Source of the DNA: Phycisphaerales bacterium | Lineage (GTDB): Bacteria; Planctomycetota; Phycisphaerae; UBA1845; Fen-1342 | Assembly (NCBI GenBank): GCA_003162245.1 | Contig: PMMM01000040.1 | Span: forward strand, 1-48,715 | Reading direction: 5' to 3' | DNA: 48,715 bases | Shown here: piece after piece, positions 1 to 12,002 of the stretch | Position numbering within the stretch: position 1 is the stretch's first letter | Layout of the letters: the number at the start of each line of letters is the position of its first letter | Translations under genes and position numbers: made by a program | Notes under the pieces: model-generated | The model's database searches: none | Told to the model about the DNA's origin: nothing | The model's input: only the letters and a program-made list of their open reading frames with translations

Positions 1-1003
1 CTCGCCGCGCCGGTCGAGGGTCAACACGCGGCCCGGAGGCAACAGCCGCGGCGCGCGGGCCAGACGCGCTTCGGTCCCCTCCGAATCGCGCAGGTAGTCC
101 GCCCGCCAGTCCATGCTCGTGCTGTCGAGGATCTTCCCCCAAGCGCAGGCCGCGCTCGACGAACGCGTCCGCTTCTTCCATGCGCAGTTGCTTCCGCAGG
201 CATTCAATCTCGGCCTGCGCCGCATCCAGTTCGGCCTGGGCAACCAGCACGGACGCGATAGTCGGCTCCGGCTCAGCCGATTCCTCGTCCGGGCTCTCCG
301 ACGGCTGCCGGCTGGCCGCCAACGGCCGCACGCCGTGCATCGCCGGGTCGTTGGTCAGCGCCACCGGCCCGAGGGCGGACACGTCAGTGTGGTCCTCGTC
401 GGTCCAGAAGATGACGGGCGAGAAGTAGCGGTACTCGCCGGCGCGCAGCAGCTCCGCGGCCCGCTCGGTCCAGGTCACGTCGGTGGCCCACAGGCCATCG
501 TCGCGCACGTCCAGGCTGCCGATCCAGCCGGCGGCTGGCCGCAACCCGTCCGGCCGCGTGTTGAGCCGGTCGAAGGTCTGGTGCTCGTAGTCGATCGCGA
601 GCTTGCGCCCCATCTGCTGGAACCAGCGCCGCGCGGACTCCGCGTGCGTGGCCGTGAAGACGAAGCTCTCGCCGGCCACCGGCCGCTCGACCGCCACGTC
701 GCCGAACGGGATCAGCAGGAACTCGCCGACCGGCTCGCCCTGCGCGCTCGATAGTGCGGTTACCTTCAGTCGGGACGACAGCGGGCCGGGGTTTCGCCCG
801 GCGGCGACCGCGGCGGGCAAGGCCGCGCCGTCGACATGCTCCAGCACGTTCGCCAAGAGCGTGCGAAAGCGGTCGAGCTCGCCGTCCAGGTCGTCCCGGG
901 CGATCGCCAGGGCCTCCCGCAGACGCACAAGAATCTGCGCTCGCACAAACGGCCCCACCGGTACCGGCGGGGCGGCGTCAGGCTGTGTGTCCATCGAACT
1001 CAC
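1..1003 (-). CDS. Mu-like prophage I protein (gpI-type capsid protease/scaffold), frameshifted, 3' end outside window
   Basis: In phage Mu-like systems the I protein is the maturation protease whose C-terminal part is the head scaffold. The translation begins with GTG at 1003, five bases after AGGTGA; an in-frame ATG lies at 994. It contains the family-typical stretch IDYEHQTF about 150 residues in, followed by a segment (GWIGSLDVRDDGLWATDVTW, then YRYFSPVIFW) typical of this protease family. It lies downstream of a portal gene, as in Mu. Near residue 287 the frame breaks at a run of five C (136-140 on the plus strand). One base fewer gives the better continuation GLRLGKILDSTSMDW to the window edge, whereas the uncorrected frame stays open but reads as low-complexity Ala/Gly/Arg/Pro. 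The indel could be real decay or a homopolymer error. The family call is by motif recognition only. Confidence 0.75.
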   Translation of the reverse strand, partial: MSSMDTQPDAAPPVPVGPFVRAQILVRLREALAIARDDLDGELDRFRTLLANVLEHVDGAALPAAVAAGRNPGPLSSRLKVTALSSAQGEPVGEFLLIPFGDVAVERPVAGESFVFTATHAESARRWFQQMGRKLAIDYEHQTFDRLNTRPDGLRPAAGWIGSLDVRDDGLWATDVTWTERAAELLRAGEYRYFSPVIFWTDEDHTDVSALGPVALTNDPAMHGVRPLAASRQPSESPDEESAEPEPTIASVLVAQAELDAAQAEIECLRKQLRMEEADAFVERGLRLGEDPRQHEHGLAGGLPARFGGDRSASGPRAAAVASGPRVDPRPARR

Positions 1004-5350: not shown

Positions 5351-5773
5351 CTATGGGATCGTGAGCTTCGTGCCGACCTTCAGCTTCTTCGGATCGGGCA
5401 CAACGCTCTTGTTCGCTTCCCAGATCCGCTCCCATGACTTCTTGCTGCCGTCGCCGTAGTACATCTTCGCGATCGAGCTGAGCGTCTCGCCCTTGGCGAC
5501 CACGTGCGTGCGTCCGCCGGTCGCCGCCTTGGAGCTCTTGGCGGCGGAGTGCTTCGGCTCAGGGGACGCCGTCTTCGGCGCCGGCGTATAGGCCGGCGAC
5601 TTGGGCTGCGTCAGCATGGGATCGGTCGCGTAGGGATCGGCGTCAACCTGGGGTTCCTTCGCGACGGACGTGGGCTTCAAGTCGGGCTGCATCTCGGTCT
5701 GTGGCTTCTTCTGCTCGCACCCGGCGATGAAGAGGACCGCTACTCCGACCAACAACAGGGGCCAGCGTTTCAT
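5351..5773 (-). CDS. LysM-domain lipoprotein
   Basis: Predicted 140-aa lipoprotein. It starts at ATG 5773, preceded by a strong AAAGGAG site. The first residues (MKRWPLLLVGVAVLFIAGC) are a signal peptide with a lipobox ending in Cys. A Pro/Thr/Lys-rich linker follows, then one LysM module (THVVAKGETLSSIAKMYY ... KLKVGTKLTIP), a fold that binds peptidoglycan GlcNAc. It therefore probably sits in the envelope with the LysM module on the cell wall. It precedes recG on the same strand with a gap of about 55 bp, but the functional link is likely accidental. A longer reading to 5803 is rejected because it places residues before the signal peptide and lacks a better ribosome site. Confidence 0.9.
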   Translation of the reverse strand: MKRWPLLLVGVAVLFIAGCEQKKPQTEMQPDLKPTSVAKEPQVDADPYATDPMLTQPKSPAYTPAPKTASPEPKHSAAKSSKAATGGRTHVVAKGETLSSIAKMYYGDGSKKSWERIWEANKSVVPDPKKLKVGTKLTIP

Positions 5774-5817
5774 GGCATATCTCCTTTCATTGTCTGGCGA
5801 CATTCGTAATTATGCGC

Positions 5818-5967: not shown

Positions 5968-6366
5968 ATGGCGGAAGAGCCAAAGAAGATCATCGTCGAC
6001 GACGACTGGAAGGCGGAAGCGAAGCGGGAAAAGGAGCGGCTGGCGACCCAGGAGCCGAAGCTGACGGCCTTGCCCGCGCCCAGCTTCGCCGAGCTGCTTA
6101 ACATCATTGCCATGCAGGCGATGGCGGGACTGGGGCTGCTGGGCGGCCCGCGCGGCGAGCGCGTGCCGCCGGACCCCGAGGTCGCGAAGCACTTCATCGA
6201 CATGCTGCAAATGCTGGAAGACAAGACCAAGAACAACCTGACCACGGAGGAGAAGGGCCTGCTGGATCAGGTGCTGTACGAGACGCGCGTGGCGTTCGTG
6301 CAATTGGCGTCCGGCGGCGGCGGCGCGCCGTCGCGGATGCCGCCGGCGGGGTCGCCCGGCGCATAG
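5968..6366 (+). CDS. DUF1844 family protein
   Basis: A 132-aa cytoplasmic protein of the DUF1844 family, whose biochemical role is unknown. Family features are a charged N-terminus (DDDWKAEAKREKERL), a central hydrophobic helix with IIAMQAMAGLGLLGG, and the conserved DPEVAKHFIDMLQMLEDKTKNNLT block followed by LLDQVLYETRVAFV. The start ATG has AAGGTG upstream. It heads a plus-strand run of six genes (VWA, ExbB, ExbD, ExbD, TPR) and ends 48 bp before the VWA gene, so it is probably co-transcribed with them. DUF1844 genes also occur in other contexts, so its part in this machine is uncertain. Confidence 0.85.
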   Translation: MAEEPKKIIVDDDWKAEAKREKERLATQEPKLTALPAPSFAELLNIIAMQAMAGLGLLGGPRGERVPPDPEVAKHFIDMLQMLEDKTKNNLTTEEKGLLDQVLYETRVAFVQLASGGGGAPSRMPPAGSPGA

Positions 6367-6414
6367 AATTGACGAGGGCGAGGTTCACCGAGCAGACGTG
6401 CAAGGGTTCCGTGC

Positions 6415-7515
6415 ATGAGTAGCGAGCCCGAGGCCAGCCGGCCAGCGCCGGGCGCGGTTCCGCCCGCCCCGGTCGACACGCTGGTGGACCGGGCGGCCCG
6501 CAACCCCTTCTACCGCTACCTGATGTACTTCGGGCTGCCACTGTCCGTCAGCCTGTTGGTGCATGTCGGCCTGCTCGCTTTTCTGGCGCTGAAAACCTTC
6601 ACGGTCCTGTCGCGCCCGATGATCGAAGTCGGCGAGTACAACGCCGGCCTGACCGAGAGCCTGGCAGACCGGATGAAAGACGCGTTCCAGTGGAGCGACG
6701 CGGCGGCGCCTGACACGCCGGAGGAAAGCCAGCCCGACCAGTCCTTCGATAGTCTGACCAATTTGCCAGACGTGCCCGATACCAACTTGCGCGAGCTGCG
6801 ACCGCCCGACGCGGGCAGCGGGCTGGGCACCGGCGACGGGCTCGGCATCGGCGATGGGGCGTTGACGTTGCTCGGCACGGGTGGCGGCGCCGGCGAGCCG
6901 GGGACCGGCGGCTTCGGCTCGGGGCTCGGCAGCGGCGCCGGGCTCGGCCAGGCAGGGCTCTGGGGCCTCAAGATCCGCGCCAACAAGATCGTCTACGTCG
7001 TGGATTTCTCCGGCTCCATCATGGTTGCCGCTGACGCCCTCAAACGCGAGCTGCGCCGTTCCGTCGGCGAGCTCCAACCCACGCAGTCCTTCGACGTCAT
7101 CATTTTCTACACTACTGGCGGCGGAGTTGACGAACACAACCGCACCGAGAGCTTCAAGCCGCAACTCGAGCCGGCCATCGAGCCGACCCGCCGCGAGTTC
7201 TTCGACTGGATCAAGAAGAAGGCGCCGCGCGGGGAGACGCAGCCGCTGGAGGCGATCCAACGGGCGCTGGCGCTGCATCCGGACGCGATCTTCTTCCACT
7301 CGGACGGCTACTTTGACGACGCGATTGTCGGCGAGATCGAGCGGGCCAATCGCAAGCAGCGGGCCAAGATCCACTGCATTGTCTTCGATGACATTCTGCT
7401 GCAAGACACCAGTGGGCTGCCGCGCGACACCGAAGGCAGCCGCCGACTCCAGAAGATCGCGGACGCCAACGGCGGGAAGCTGCAGATCGTCACAGGAAAG
7501 GACCTGAAGCGCTAG
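6415..7515 (+). CDS. Single-span membrane protein with TonB-like helix and VWA domain
   Basis: A 366-aa protein: a short cytoplasmic N-terminus, one transmembrane helix (about residues 40-60), an acidic/Pro-rich stretch, a Gly-rich flexible linker (about 133-181) and a C-terminal von Willebrand factor A domain (about 190-360). The VWA MIDAS motif DFSGS is at 197-201, so metal binding is plausible. The helix contains Ser46-x3-His50, the same spacing as the Ser/His pair in TonB and TolA that couples them to ExbB/ExbD or TolQ/TolR. With ExbB and two ExbD genes immediately downstream, the protein occupies the position of the force transducer but carries VWA where TonB/TolA carry their outer-membrane-contacting domain. 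A ribosome site (AAGGG) precedes ATG 6415. The partner bound by the VWA domain is unknown. Confidence 0.85.
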   Translation: MSSEPEASRPAPGAVPPAPVDTLVDRAARNPFYRYLMYFGLPLSVSLLVHVGLLAFLALKTFTVLSRPMIEVGEYNAGLTESLADRMKDAFQWSDAAAPDTPEESQPDQSFDSLTNLPDVPDTNLRELRPPDAGSGLGTGDGLGIGDGALTLLGTGGGAGEPGTGGFGSGLGSGAGLGQAGLWGLKIRANKIVYVVDFSGSIMVAADALKRELRRSVGELQPTQSFDVIIFYTTGGGVDEHNRTESFKPQLEPAIEPTRREFFDWIKKKAPRGETQPLEAIQRALALHPDAIFFHSDGYFDDAIVGEIERANRKQRAKIHCIVFDDILLQDTSGLPRDTEGSRRLQKIADANGGKLQIVTGKDLKR

Positions 7516-7550
7516 CGCGTCGCCGAACGGTAAGGACGACGGGAGAGCCC

Positions 7551-8333
7551 ATGCAGAGCGAGAGCTTGAAACGGACGGCGTTGGCGGGAACGTGGCTGTT
7601 GCTCGGGGCCGTGCCGGCCCTGGCCCAGGTGCCGGGCGGCGAGCGGCAGCCACTGCTGAAGATCATCCGCGAGGGGATCGAGGTGCCCTCGTACTTCATC
7701 TTCGCGGGCTCGATCGTCGTGATCGCCCTGATCGTCGAGCACTTTTTGCGCGTACGCCGGGCCGGTATCGCCCCGCCGGAACAGGTTCGCCGCGCCAAAG
7801 AGCACATCGAGAATCGCAGCTTTCGCGAGTGCATGGACGGGCTGCGGCAAAGCCGGACGTTCTTTGCTCAGACGATGACGGCGGCCCTGTCGCACGCGCG
7901 GCACGGGTTCGACGCGATGCACGAGGCCGCCATGGAGAAATCCGGCGAGCTCAGCGGACGGATGTTCCGCCGGGCGGAGTTTCTGAACATCATCGGCAAC
8001 CTCGGTCCGCTGCTTGGCCTGCTGGGCACGGTGTGGGGCATGATCCGAGCGTTTGGGGCCCTCGGGGCCGGCGGAGGACAGGCGGGTGCCGGCGACCTGG
8101 CGGGCGGCATCAGCCAAGCCCTCGTGAACACGCTGCTCGGGTTGTCGCTGGCGATCGTCGGCATCGGGTTTTTCGGCCTCTGCCGCAACCGCATCGACTC
8201 GCTCACGGTCGCGGCGACGGTCGATGTGCTCGATTTGCTGGAGTATTTCCGCCCGGCGCCGACGGCGACCCGGCCACCGGCCGCCGCGGCGCCAGTGCCG
8301 CCGGCGCGTGTCGCGCCCAGCGAGGGTCGGTGA
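7551..8333 (+). CDS. ExbB/TolQ/MotA-family proton channel protein
   Basis: Inner-membrane stator protein of proton-motive-force motors, 260 aa. Residues 1-26 look like a cleavable signal sequence (ending ALAQ). Three membrane helices follow: about 47-66, 144-165 (NLGPLLGLLGTVWGMIRAF) and 189-210 (ISQALVNTLLGLSLAIVGIG), with a cytoplasmic loop between the first two as in ExbB. The motifs in helices 2 and 3 are the most conserved part of the family. The start ATG is preceded by GGGAGA. It is four bases upstream of the first ExbD gene and 35 bp downstream of the VWA gene, so the three are surely one operon. An assignment as TolQ rather than ExbB cannot be made from sequence alone. Confidence 0.93.
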   Translation: MQSESLKRTALAGTWLLLGAVPALAQVPGGERQPLLKIIREGIEVPSYFIFAGSIVVIALIVEHFLRVRRAGIAPPEQVRRAKEHIENRSFRECMDGLRQSRTFFAQTMTAALSHARHGFDAMHEAAMEKSGELSGRMFRRAEFLNIIGNLGPLLGLLGTVWGMIRAFGALGAGGGQAGAGDLAGGISQALVNTLLGLSLAIVGIGFFGLCRNRIDSLTVAATVDVLDLLEYFRPAPTATRPPAAAAPVPPARVAPSEGR

Positions 8334-8337
8334 CGCG

Positions 8338-8823
8338 ATGCTGAAGCGTCCGCCCAAACCGGCGAGCATGACACTCAATCTCGCGCCCATGGTGGACGTG
8401 ATGATGTGCCTGATCGTCTTCTTCCTGCTCGCCAGCAAGATGGTTGCCGCCGAGCGTTACCCGGTCGATCTGCCGTGGGCGGTGGCGGGCAAGCAGGTCG
8501 AGCAGAGCGATCTCGGCCAGCGGGTCACCATCACCGTTCGCAAAGCGAAGGACAGCGACGAGTCGGCGGAGTACGTGGTGGCCGACTGGGACGGCCGGCA
8601 GATCGTCGAGCGCGTGCTGTTGCCCAGCGAGGTTGAGTCACTGCTTCAGAACCGGGCCGCGCGGGCCGTCCGCGAGAACCAGAAGCTGCGCTGCGTGATC
8701 CGCGCCGACCGGATGGTCATGTACAAGCACGTCGAGTACGTGCTGCGGGGCTGCGGCCTGGCCCAGATCCGCGACATCGTCTTCAGCGTCAACGAGGGCA
8801 CCGAGGCGGAGGGACGGGGATGA
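8338..8823 (+). CDS. ExbD/TolR-family protein (first copy)
   Basis: A 161-aa ExbD/TolR-type protein: a short cytoplasmic tail, one membrane helix (about 19-37) and a periplasmic domain. The helix carries the conserved motif NLAPMVDVMM with the proton-carrying Asp at residue 20. The start chosen is ATG 8338, four bases after the ExbB stop; longer readings would overlap ExbB and lack the family N-terminus. The periplasmic part is longer than in the typical ExbD and includes an acidic segment (AKDSDESAEYVV). It overlaps the second ExbD gene by four bases (ATGA), pointing to equal translation of the two copies and perhaps a heterodimer in the motor. Confidence 0.92.
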   Translation: MLKRPPKPASMTLNLAPMVDVMMCLIVFFLLASKMVAAERYPVDLPWAVAGKQVEQSDLGQRVTITVRKAKDSDESAEYVVADWDGRQIVERVLLPSEVESLLQNRAARAVRENQKLRCVIRADRMVMYKHVEYVLRGCGLAQIRDIVFSVNEGTEAEGRG

Positions 8824-9284
8824 AGCGGCCGCTGGAGCCCGCCGCCGAGACGGTTCCCAACCTGGCACCGATGGTCGACGTGATCATGGTGCTGCTGGTC
8901 TTCTTCCTGCTCGGTACCTCGCTGGACCTCGTCAAGCAGGGCATCCTCCAGACCGAGCTGGACCCGCGCAGCGGCCCGGGCGGCGGACAGGCCGTCCAGA
9001 TCAACCCGCTCATCCGTATCGCGCTGGGCGACGTGAACCACGGTGCGTCGGCGTCGATCCGCGTGCTCGACACGGCGCTGCCGGAAGGCGATTTTCAGCG
9101 CCTGTACGCGTACCTGCGCGAGCGCCGCCAGGCCGGGGCCGACCCGGACAACCCGGTCATCATCGGCGCCGAAACCGACGTGCGCTGGAAATTCGTGGTC
9201 AGCGCGATGGACGCGGCGGTGCGGGCCGGCTTCAAGAACGTGCAGTTTGCGGTCAGTTTTCGCGCCGGCAGCGTGGGAAGCTGA
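8820..9284 (+). CDS. ExbD/TolR-family protein (second copy)
   Basis: A second ExbD/TolR-like protein, 154 aa, translated from an ATG overlapping the stop of the first. The helix motif NLAPMVDVIM again has Asp at residue 20. The periplasmic parts of the two copies differ clearly, so this is an old duplication rather than a recent one. ExbB5-ExbD2-type motors normally use two ExbD chains inside the ExbB pentamer; two different genes suggest an asymmetric ExbD dimer. The stop is 42 bp before the TPR gene. Confidence 0.92.
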   Translation: MKRPLEPAAETVPNLAPMVDVIMVLLVFFLLGTSLDLVKQGILQTELDPRSGPGGGQAVQINPLIRIALGDVNHGASASIRVLDTALPEGDFQRLYAYLRERRQAGADPDNPVIIGAETDVRWKFVVSAMDAAVRAGFKNVQFAVSFRAGSVGS

Positions 9285-9326
9285 TCGCAGAGCCGCGGAG
9301 AGCGCTGAGGCCGCTGAGAGAAAACC

Positions 9327-12002
9327 ATGAGGTCAATGTCCCTGGCCTGGCTGCTGGTTCTATGCACATCCGCCGCTCGCACGGCGGCTCAAGAGGAGTC
9401 CAAGCCGGTCTCCGACGACATCCAGCGCATGGTCCGCGAGGGGATGGTTGAAGCGCTGGAGACGAAGCTGCGCGGCGTGACGATCGAGGACCAGGGCCTC
9501 CTGGCGCAGGCGTACGCCAACAAAGCCCGCCGCGTTCAGGCCAATGACGAGCGCAAGCGGGCCTTCGAAAAAGCCGACGAGAAATACCGCCGGTGGATTG
9601 AGGCACTCCAAGAGGCAGCCAAGCGCGGCGGGGCCAAGGGCGCGGTGCGACTGGCGGCCGGCCGGGTCAGCTACGCCGACATGCTCCTCTCCGGGCCGAT
9701 CGCCTCGGACCTGGACAACTTCGAGCTCAGCCTGGGGCAGCGCGGCGATCGCGCCCTGCTGGTCAAGTTGTTCGAGACGGCCCGCACACAGTACGAGAAA
9801 GCTGGGAAGGAGCTTGCACCGCTGATGGAGGACCTGACCGCGCAAGAGGAAGACCTGCTGGCGGCCGGCCTCTACGACGTTCTCCAAAACGCGAACCTCA
9901 ATCAGAAGCTCAACCTCGGCTGGACGGACTATTACCTCGGCGTGCTCGAGGACAAGGACGAGCAGAAGAAGCGTGAGTTCTTTGTTGCCGCCGAGCGCCG
10001 GCTCCAGGAGTTGGTCAACCTGAACCCGGCGGGGGCGCTCCGTTATACGTGCTATCTGGCCCTGGCGATGGCGCAGCGCGAGCAGGAGAAGTTCAAGGAC
10101 GCCAGCGGGAGCTTCAAGTACGCGCTGGCCGATGACGCCGAGCCCGCCACCGCGGCCCGCGTGCGGTACGAGCTGGCCCGCTGCCAGCTCAAAATGGGGA
10201 AGTTCGACGATGCCCGCGCTACGCTCCGGCCCCTGGTTGAGAAGGACGCTCAGAATCTGGGCGCCGCCGATCGTCCGGCGCGGTTCTACATCAACCTGGC
10301 ACACGTCTGGGACGCTTACAGCTATTTGTTAGAGGCCGATGCGATCCGGCGGGAGGCAAAGGACAGTGCGTCGCGCGCGGCGACACTGAAGCAGGCCCAG
10401 CGGACGCGCGAAACGGGGCTGGGCAAGCTCAAGCATCTCGCCGACCAGGGCGGATCCTGGCCGGCCCTCGTGCAGATTTACGTGTCGGCGAGCATCAACC
10501 TCAAGGCCCCGCTCGACAAGCTCGAGCCTATCGAGCTGCTGTTCTCCGCCGGCGCATTGATGGAGCAAAAGCGTTACGCCGACGCACTGGAGCGCCTGCG
10601 TGAGGCCGCCAAGCGTGAAGGCGTCGCGCCTGAGCTGCTGGGCGACGTGCTTTACGACCTGGGCTGCTGCCAGGTCCAACTCAAGCAGCAGCGCGACGCC
10701 GCCGAGACGTTCGCCCGGCTGGCGGCGGAGCAGCGCGGCCACCCGAAGGCGCCCGAGGCTGCAACGCTGGCGTATCAGCTTTGGGGCAAGATCGCCGAAA
10801 GCAGCAAGAAGCCCGAGGATTACTTGCGGCTGGCCGACACGTTGCGCAACCTGGTCGAGAGCTTCGCGGACCATCCGGAACGCGAACGGGCCCTGTGGCT
10901 GCTGCCGGTGGCGCTGCAGCTCGCCGGCCGATACGGCGAAGCCGCCGAGCGGTTCGGCAAGGTCCCGCCCAACTCGAAGAACTGGGAAGAGGCACAGTAC
11001 CGGCGGGCATTCTGTGCGTGGAAAGCAGTCGAGATCGCGCGGGCCGGACTTGACCCGGAGGAGTATCGGAAAAGGGTGGAGAAGGCGGCTGCGAACCTCG
11101 TGCAGTATGCCGACGAGGCGCGCCAACGGGCACCGACGGCGCCCAAGCCCGAAACCGTGCTGAAGTGGTCTGCGGAGGCGCGTGTCGCGGCCGGCGAGCT
11201 GCTGCTTTCGCCTGGACTGGAGGCGTACGCCGACGCATTGAAGGCAATCGCGGAGTTCGAGGCGCAGTATCCGGAGAGCGAGTTACTCGGCCGCGTGTTG
11301 GCGCTGCGCATCCGCGCCTACCGCGGGCTGCGCGAGTTCGAGCAGGCCTCGCAAATGTTGCAGCGCTTCCTCCAAACGGCGTCGGCGGCGCAGATCGGCG
11401 GCACGCTCGCGGCGCTGGCGAAGGGGATGCAGGATGAGGTCGAGCGGCTCGACGCCGACAACCAGACCGACGCCGCCCGCAAGCTGGCCGCCGACTCGGT
11501 CGCGACGTTTGAGGAGTTGGAGAAATGGGTGCGGGCCGACCCGGTCCGGGCCGCCAATCTGGAGTTCGTGCAGTCCGGCCGTGCGAAAATGCACTACTTA
11601 GCAGGCCAATACGACGAGGCGCAGCGCATCGCCGCCGCTTTGCTTGAAAAAAACCCAAAGAACGGGAATTACCAGTACCTGCACGCGCTGATCCTGACGG
11701 CCCGGCTGAGGGACAACGCGCCGGCGGCCGAGGTGAAGCCCGTACAGGACGCCTGGGCCGCGCTGCTGACCGACCCGGGGATTCGCCAACGTGCCCCGGA
11801 GCGCTTCTGGGAAGCTCGTTATCACTGGCTGATGATGTCGCTGCGCCTCGGCAGCGCCGCCGACGTCGAGAAGGCGATCACGCAGGAGCGCGTCTGGTCG
11901 CCGGACCTCGGCGGCCCGCCGTGGAAAGAGAAGCTGGAGGACCTGTGGCACCGGGCGCGCGTCGCGCAGGGTCTGCCGCCGGAGACACAGCCCGGCACGT
12001 AG
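9327..12002 (+). CDS. Large exported tetratricopeptide-repeat protein
   Basis: An 891-aa protein with an N-terminal signal peptide (MRSMSLAWLLVLCTSAARTAAQ) and no later membrane segment, so it is probably periplasmic. The rest is almost entirely alpha-helical with TPR-like units, for example ALRYTCYLALAMAQREQEKF, ARVRYELARCQLKMGKFDDA and LLGDVLYDLGCCQVQLKQQ. TPR arrays act as protein-interaction scaffolds. It is the last gene of the DUF1844-VWA-ExbB-ExbD-ExbD series, 42 bp after the second ExbD, with GAGAGA before its ATG. By position it is a candidate periplasmic partner of the VWA/ExbBD motor, comparable to YbgF/CpoB beside TolQRA, though CpoB is far smaller. No enzymatic motif was seen. 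Confidence 0.85.
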   Translation: MRSMSLAWLLVLCTSAARTAAQEESKPVSDDIQRMVREGMVEALETKLRGVTIEDQGLLAQAYANKARRVQANDERKRAFEKADEKYRRWIEALQEAAKRGGAKGAVRLAAGRVSYADMLLSGPIASDLDNFELSLGQRGDRALLVKLFETARTQYEKAGKELAPLMEDLTAQEEDLLAAGLYDVLQNANLNQKLNLGWTDYYLGVLEDKDEQKKREFFVAAERRLQELVNLNPAGALRYTCYLALAMAQREQEKFKDASGSFKYALADDAEPATAARVRYELARCQLKMGKFDDARATLRPLVEKDAQNLGAADRPARFYINLAHVWDAYSYLLEADAIRREAKDSASRAATLKQAQRTRETGLGKLKHLADQGGSWPALVQIYVSASINLKAPLDKLEPIELLFSAGALMEQKRYADALERLREAAKREGVAPELLGDVLYDLGCCQVQLKQQRDAAETFARLAAEQRGHPKAPEAATLAYQLWGKIAESSKKPEDYLRLADTLRNLVESFADHPERERALWLLPVALQLAGRYGEAAERFGKVPPNSKNWEEAQYRRAFCAWKAVEIARAGLDPEEYRKRVEKAAANLVQYADEARQRAPTAPKPETVLKWSAEARVAAGELLLSPGLEAYADALKAIAEFEAQYPESELLGRVLALRIRAYRGLREFEQASQMLQRFLQTASAAQIGGTLAALAKGMQDEVERLDADNQTDAARKLAADSVATFEELEKWVRADPVRAANLEFVQSGRAKMHYLAGQYDEAQRIAAALLEKNPKNGNYQYLHALILTARLRDNAPAAEVKPVQDAWAALLTDPGIRQRAPERFWEARYHWLMMSLRLGSAADVEKAITQERVWSPDLGGPPWKEKLEDLWHRARVAQGLPPETQPGT

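Follow-up and report, generated by a model that had tools for sequence, protein, structure and literature searches.

Which transducer, and through it which envelope process, does an ExbB-ExbD (ExbBD) motor serve in a bacterium with no recognisable TonB? The question is raised by a gene cluster of a Phycisphaerales bacterium, at positions 6415-12002 on the forward strand of contig PMMM01000040.1 (positions 1-48,715, the whole stretch analysed and hereafter the window), where five closely spaced genes encode a protein with a von Willebrand factor A (vWA) domain, an ExbB, two ExbDs (ExbD1 and ExbD2), and a tetratricopeptide repeat (TPR) protein. Both ExbD genes of the host genome (97% complete, 264 contigs) lie at this locus, and Pfam found in that genome no match to TonB_C or to the Plug of TonB-dependent receptors. 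The only other MotA_ExbB gene there, considered as an alternative TolQ, was rejected, as a MotB/OmpA-type gene follows it and the two look like a MotA/MotB pair. Because the genome holds no other ExbD, TonB_C or receptor plug, the vWA protein is, judged by sequence, the only recognisable ExbBD partner there. The locus very probably belongs to the vWA force transducers, a group named only in 2025 (Williams-Jones et al., 2025; Mol Biol Evol msaf138, PMC12204202), with its vWA protein coupled to the ExbBD motor. What is new here is not this transducer class, already published, but that one of its members has no other recognisable ExbBD transducer beside it in the genome and is nearly universal in the bacterial class Phycisphaerae.

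The vWA protein has a predicted membrane helix (residues 31-65) that contains Ser46 and His50. In an alignment of 46 vWA homologues (median pairwise identity 24%), His50 is invariant (46/46) and Ser occupies position 46 in 43 sequences (93%). Against these 43 occurrences of S-x3-H within the helix, 2000 within-helix shuffles gave a mean of 5.6 and a maximum of 12, a comparison that is not a strict p-value, the 46 sequences being related, and that is accompanied by three further controls independent of shuffling. The host genome has ten other vWA matches, none of which carries S-x3-H in a detected membrane helix; these genes have different helices or none detected, and three are clustered on contig C132. 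Among 80 loci retrieved with ExbB as the sole query, the motif was present in 29 of the 33 vWA neighbours, while the approximately 47 loci without a vWA match yielded a single open reading frame (ORF) with an S-x3-H helix. Leu57 and Thr61, which we take to correspond to the Leu and the final Ser of the Ser-His-Leu-Ser motif of TonB and TolA, with a spacing assumed from general knowledge, are poorly conserved in the 46-sequence alignment.

Two further observations concern this motif. At locus L131 (3337-4842), labelled Kiritimatiellae, a 501-residue ORF downstream of ExbB-ExbD-ExbD has an S-x3-H helix (SILLH) and no match to the vWA model, and is possibly a transducer with another tip. In six loci of one planctomycete family (L039, L043, L045, L053, L054, L061), an extra vWA paralogue with an S-x3-H helix has no ExbBD gene nearby and may, by analogy with multiple TonBs, share a motor encoded elsewhere.

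Beyond the helix, an AlphaFold2 single-chain model built with the same alignment predicts a mostly disordered linker of about 110 residues (block-mean predicted local distance difference test, pLDDT, of 42-56 over residues ~71-180), followed by a vWA domain with pLDDT mostly above 90. The published vWA force transducers have a beta-strand 'motor box' following the helix (Williams-Jones et al., 2025); in this model no strand is predicted at residues 66-179, and a short stretch of IEVGEY type occurs in the sequence just past the helix. The best 50 Foldseek matches are mainly vWA folds, among which inter-alpha-inhibitor heavy chain 1 ranks first and BatB and integrin I domains also occur. The protein itself has no Pfam match, TonB_C included, and 37 of the 46 aligned sequences match VWA_3. 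In the metal-ion-dependent adhesion site (MIDAS), D197 and S199 are invariant, S201 and D297 are each kept in 44/46 sequences, and position 275 is Thr or Ser in 43/46. Because this conservation persists at a median identity of 24%, strong constraint acts on the putative motor-binding Ser/His and on all five residues of the MIDAS.

The motor parts are intact, with the channel-helix Thr pair of ExbB (about T160 and T194) invariant in 26 operon-linked sequences and the transmembrane Asp of ExbD invariant in 33; ExbB also has an N-terminal signal-like segment. Conservation of the operon was traced in a first set of 49 regions fetched around vWA homologues in planctomycete genomes and in the second set of 80 loci from the ExbB-first search. 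About half of the 49 regions contain vWA-ExbB-ExbD; most of these have two ExbDs, and many also have a large TPR gene. The two independent searches combined gave vWA, ExbB and ExbD together in 57 loci, the host locus and a Desulfobacteraceae-labelled one (L138) counted. Recurrent across Planctomycetota, the arrangement is sporadic beyond the phylum, where SxxxH-vWA-like genes adjoin ExbB at L138 and at loci with the labels Proteobacteria (L134) and Candidatus Binatota (L156), all three being unchecked metagenome-bin labels. Homologues of the 891-residue TPR protein, which partially resembles YbgF/CpoB and BamD models, lie downstream of the motor in about a dozen loci of the first set, and this protein is the best candidate for an adaptor or partner of the vWA transducer. 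Most relatives have, in addition, a gene for a secreted TPR protein of ~380 residues between vWA and ExbB; clustering of the other neighbours, with much antisense noise, gave no informative conserved partner besides this small TPR gene. An initial annotation of the window had described a single-span helix with Ser46-x3-His50, an exported end formed by a vWA domain with an intact MIDAS, an ExbB, two different ExbDs each with Asp20, and an 891-residue TPR protein closing the operon, all of which the ORFs, Pfam matches, predicted fold and residue conservation bear out; the retention of the Ser/His pair in homologues and their co-occurrence with ExbB/ExbD, which it had put forward as a check, were likewise found. 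Its further suggestion, that the vWA domain pulls or releases a ligand in a metal-dependent manner, is at most made plausible by MIDAS conservation. The features of the locus are collected below.

Features of the motor gene cluster and its upstream neighbour (nucleotide positions in the window; residue numbers refer to the vWA protein unless stated)
Feature	Position	Strand	Basis
DUF1844 gene, 132 residues; upstream neighbour of the vWA gene	5968-6366	+	Pfam
vWA force-transducer protein, 366 residues	6415-7515	+	ORF, AlphaFold2 model, 46-sequence alignment
Parts of the vWA protein: short N-terminus; helix 31-65; Gly/Pro/acidic linker ~66-177; vWA domain 178-366			
S46 codon, within predicted helix 31-65	6550-6552	+	
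H50 codon, within predicted helix 31-65	6562-6564	+	
MIDAS residues D197/S199/S201, T275, D297	from 7003 (D197/S199/S201)		
ExbB/TolQ-family motor subunit, 260 residues	7551-8333	+	Pfam MotA_ExbB, E 1e-23
ExbD1/TolR-family subunit, Asp20 in transmembrane helix	8338-8823	+	Pfam ExbD (E 1.5e-16 and 2.4e-16, both ExbDs)
ExbD2/TolR-family subunit, Asp20; 4-base overlap with ExbD1	8820-9284	+	Pfam ExbD
Exported TPR protein, 891 residues	9327-12002	+	Pfam TPR, E 2e-13

Does this locus represent a distinct class of proton-motive-force machine, as first suggested? The class is real, but it is not newly discovered: vWA force transducers were described, starting from Tichowtungia, as proteins with a Ser/His-motif helix, a linker of ~100 residues and a vWA domain, linked to genes for a TolQ-like protein, two heterologous TolR-like proteins and a TPR protein, and were reported from PVC (Planctomycetes-Verrucomicrobia-Chlamydiae) bacteria, with Planctomycetes among the listed phyla (Williams-Jones et al., 2025). 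All of this recurs at the host locus, with its Ser-x3-His helix, a disordered linker of consistent length, a vWA fold and linkage to TolQ, two TolRs and TPR. It differs from the published class in that its vWA gene directly adjoins ExbB, whereas most relatives have a small secreted TPR gene in between, and in that its vWA protein is the genome's only recognisable ExbBD transducer.

Other known systems fit less well. The locus shares with ExbB-ExbD-TonB the motor subunits, the membrane-helix motif and a three-part transducer layout, and with TolQ-TolR-TolA-TolB-Pal-CpoB the motor family, the Ser/His helix and a TPR partner resembling CpoB/YbgF models. Unlike the former, it has two different ExbDs and a vWA tip, in a host lacking the TonB C-terminal domain and TonB-dependent receptors; unlike the latter, it has no TolA or TolB domain and no Pal in the operon. 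An identity as TonB or TolA does not fit the vWA fold or the lack of a TonB_C match in protein and genome alike. The TPH-vWA/TolQ family (Williams-Jones et al., 2025) also combines a vWA domain with a TolQ-like partner, but has no ExbD, an Asp in the helix of the vWA protein and no Ser/His motif, and does not fit the host locus, which is opposite in each respect, with two ExbD genes and no Asp in helix 41-60. Nor does the locus fit a BatA/BatB aerotolerance operon, no MoxR or DUF58 gene being recognised in the operon, or the defence system Zorya (ZorA/ZorB), PADLOC giving no match for the vWA, ExbB or ExbD proteins. It is very improbable that vWA protein and motor are coincidental neighbours, the former an independent BatA/BatB-like anchored protein and the latter serving another partner, for although N-terminal membrane anchors are frequent among vWA proteins and the host genome has ten other vWA matches, the SxxxH helix sets this vWA family apart, synteny is kept across classes, and no other ExbBD partner is recognised in the host genome.

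That the vWA protein takes the place of TonB or TolA on an ExbB-ExbD motor, as proposed in the initial annotation, is well supported by the helix motif with its invariant His, the conserved operon and the absence of TonB and TonB-dependent receptors. ExbB, expected to be a pentamer, and an ExbD1/ExbD2 dimer would make up an inner-membrane motor of rotary type, driven by protons, on whose ExbB exterior the helix of the vWA protein would dock through S46 and H50, as TonB and TolA do. Proton flow via the Asp20 residues of the ExbDs would be passed on to the vWA protein, pulling or turning it, and the flexible linker would span the periplasm, so placing a vWA tip that would grip a partner in the periplasm or outer membrane, the contact probably involving a metal bound at the MIDAS.

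What such a machine might do is suggested by its distribution among 130 genomes of the host's class, Phycisphaerae, all with a completeness of 90% or more. Of these, 127 match the transducer model at E ≤ 1e-10 and 124 at E ≤ 1e-25; among 30 matched loci fetched as a check, SxxxH was present in 27 and ExbB within a flank of ~1.5 kb in 26. ExbD is likewise found in 127 of the 130, and strong transducer matches never occur without it, the three ExbD-less genomes having none. A recognisable TonB, in contrast, is missing from over half (TonB_C in 54/130), and TolB from all (TolB_N, PF04052, 0/130); in the host's own family TonB_C occurs in none of eight genomes and the transducer in all eight. Such a class-level survey of transducer, ExbBD and TonB was not found in Williams-Jones et al. 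(2025), and no later work on vWA force transducers, nor any on Ton/Tol in Phycisphaerae, came up in a literature search. Near-universality argues for a core role, a question that thereby becomes directly testable, and an obvious place to look for the function of the vWA transducer is in genomes with no other ExbBD motor, because whichever envelope processes draw on ExbBD in such a genome must depend on the transducer.

The function of vWA force transducers has been reported as not known (Williams-Jones et al., 2025). We tentatively favour, at less than even confidence, a Tol-like core function in the envelope, namely outer-membrane or peptidoglycan maintenance, rather than nutrient import, because the transducer is near-universal in a class without TolB and often without TonB, and because the host genome offers no recognisable alternative in the form of TonB, its receptors or TolB. 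Also less likely than not is a bolder version, in which the transducer would be the core, possibly essential, ExbBD/TolQR machine of Phycisphaerae, doing the work of Tol-Pal in outer-membrane and division maintenance, with a metal-dependent vWA grip replacing the TolA-TolB-Pal contacts.

An uptake transducer, its vWA tip opening or gating an unrecognised outer-membrane importer in TonB's place, would share the ExbBD chemistry with Ton and would suit the fact that, among the class genomes without a TonB C-terminal domain, nearly all keep ExbBD; it is nonetheless unlikely, as the host genome has no TonB-dependent receptor plug, no transporter or barrel gene was recognised in the operon, and the system is kept also in genomes that have TonB. 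A role in gliding or adhesion was suggested by analogy with Myxococcus gliding (Williams-Jones et al., 2025), and vWA and MIDAS are classic adhesion folds; yet a surface machine whose motor moves a vWA-bound outer-membrane adhesin is improbable here, given that near-universality in a class would be unusual for such a trait and that no adhesin gene was recognised in the operon.

Several points weigh against the preferred reading of a vWA transducer docked on ExbBD in a Tol-like role. Docking is predicted from published AlphaFold3 models of relatives, in which the transducer His docks on the motor (Williams-Jones et al., 2025); no deletion phenotype is known for any vWA force transducer; and the Tol-like role rests on distribution only. 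Within that distribution, the Fisher p of 6e-5 for the association of strong transducer matches with ExbD is optimistic because related genomes are not independent points, and the Pfam models would overlook any TolB or TonB domain that has diverged beyond their reach. Pal-like OmpA lipoproteins are encoded in the host genome, but without linkage to the operon. Binding of metal may not be a property of every member, as a second, longer vWA transducer paralogue of some class genomes (L064, L068) retains the S-x3-H helix with a degenerate MIDAS.

Lastly, the interval first delimited for the system, 5968-12002, holds for the five genes from 6415 onwards but not for its start, where the DUF1844 gene falls outside the conserved unit and was rejected as an operon member, no homologue of it having turned up in the loci of relatives. 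Upstream of and divergent from that gene lies a LysM-domain lipoprotein-like gene at 5351-5803 on the reverse strand.
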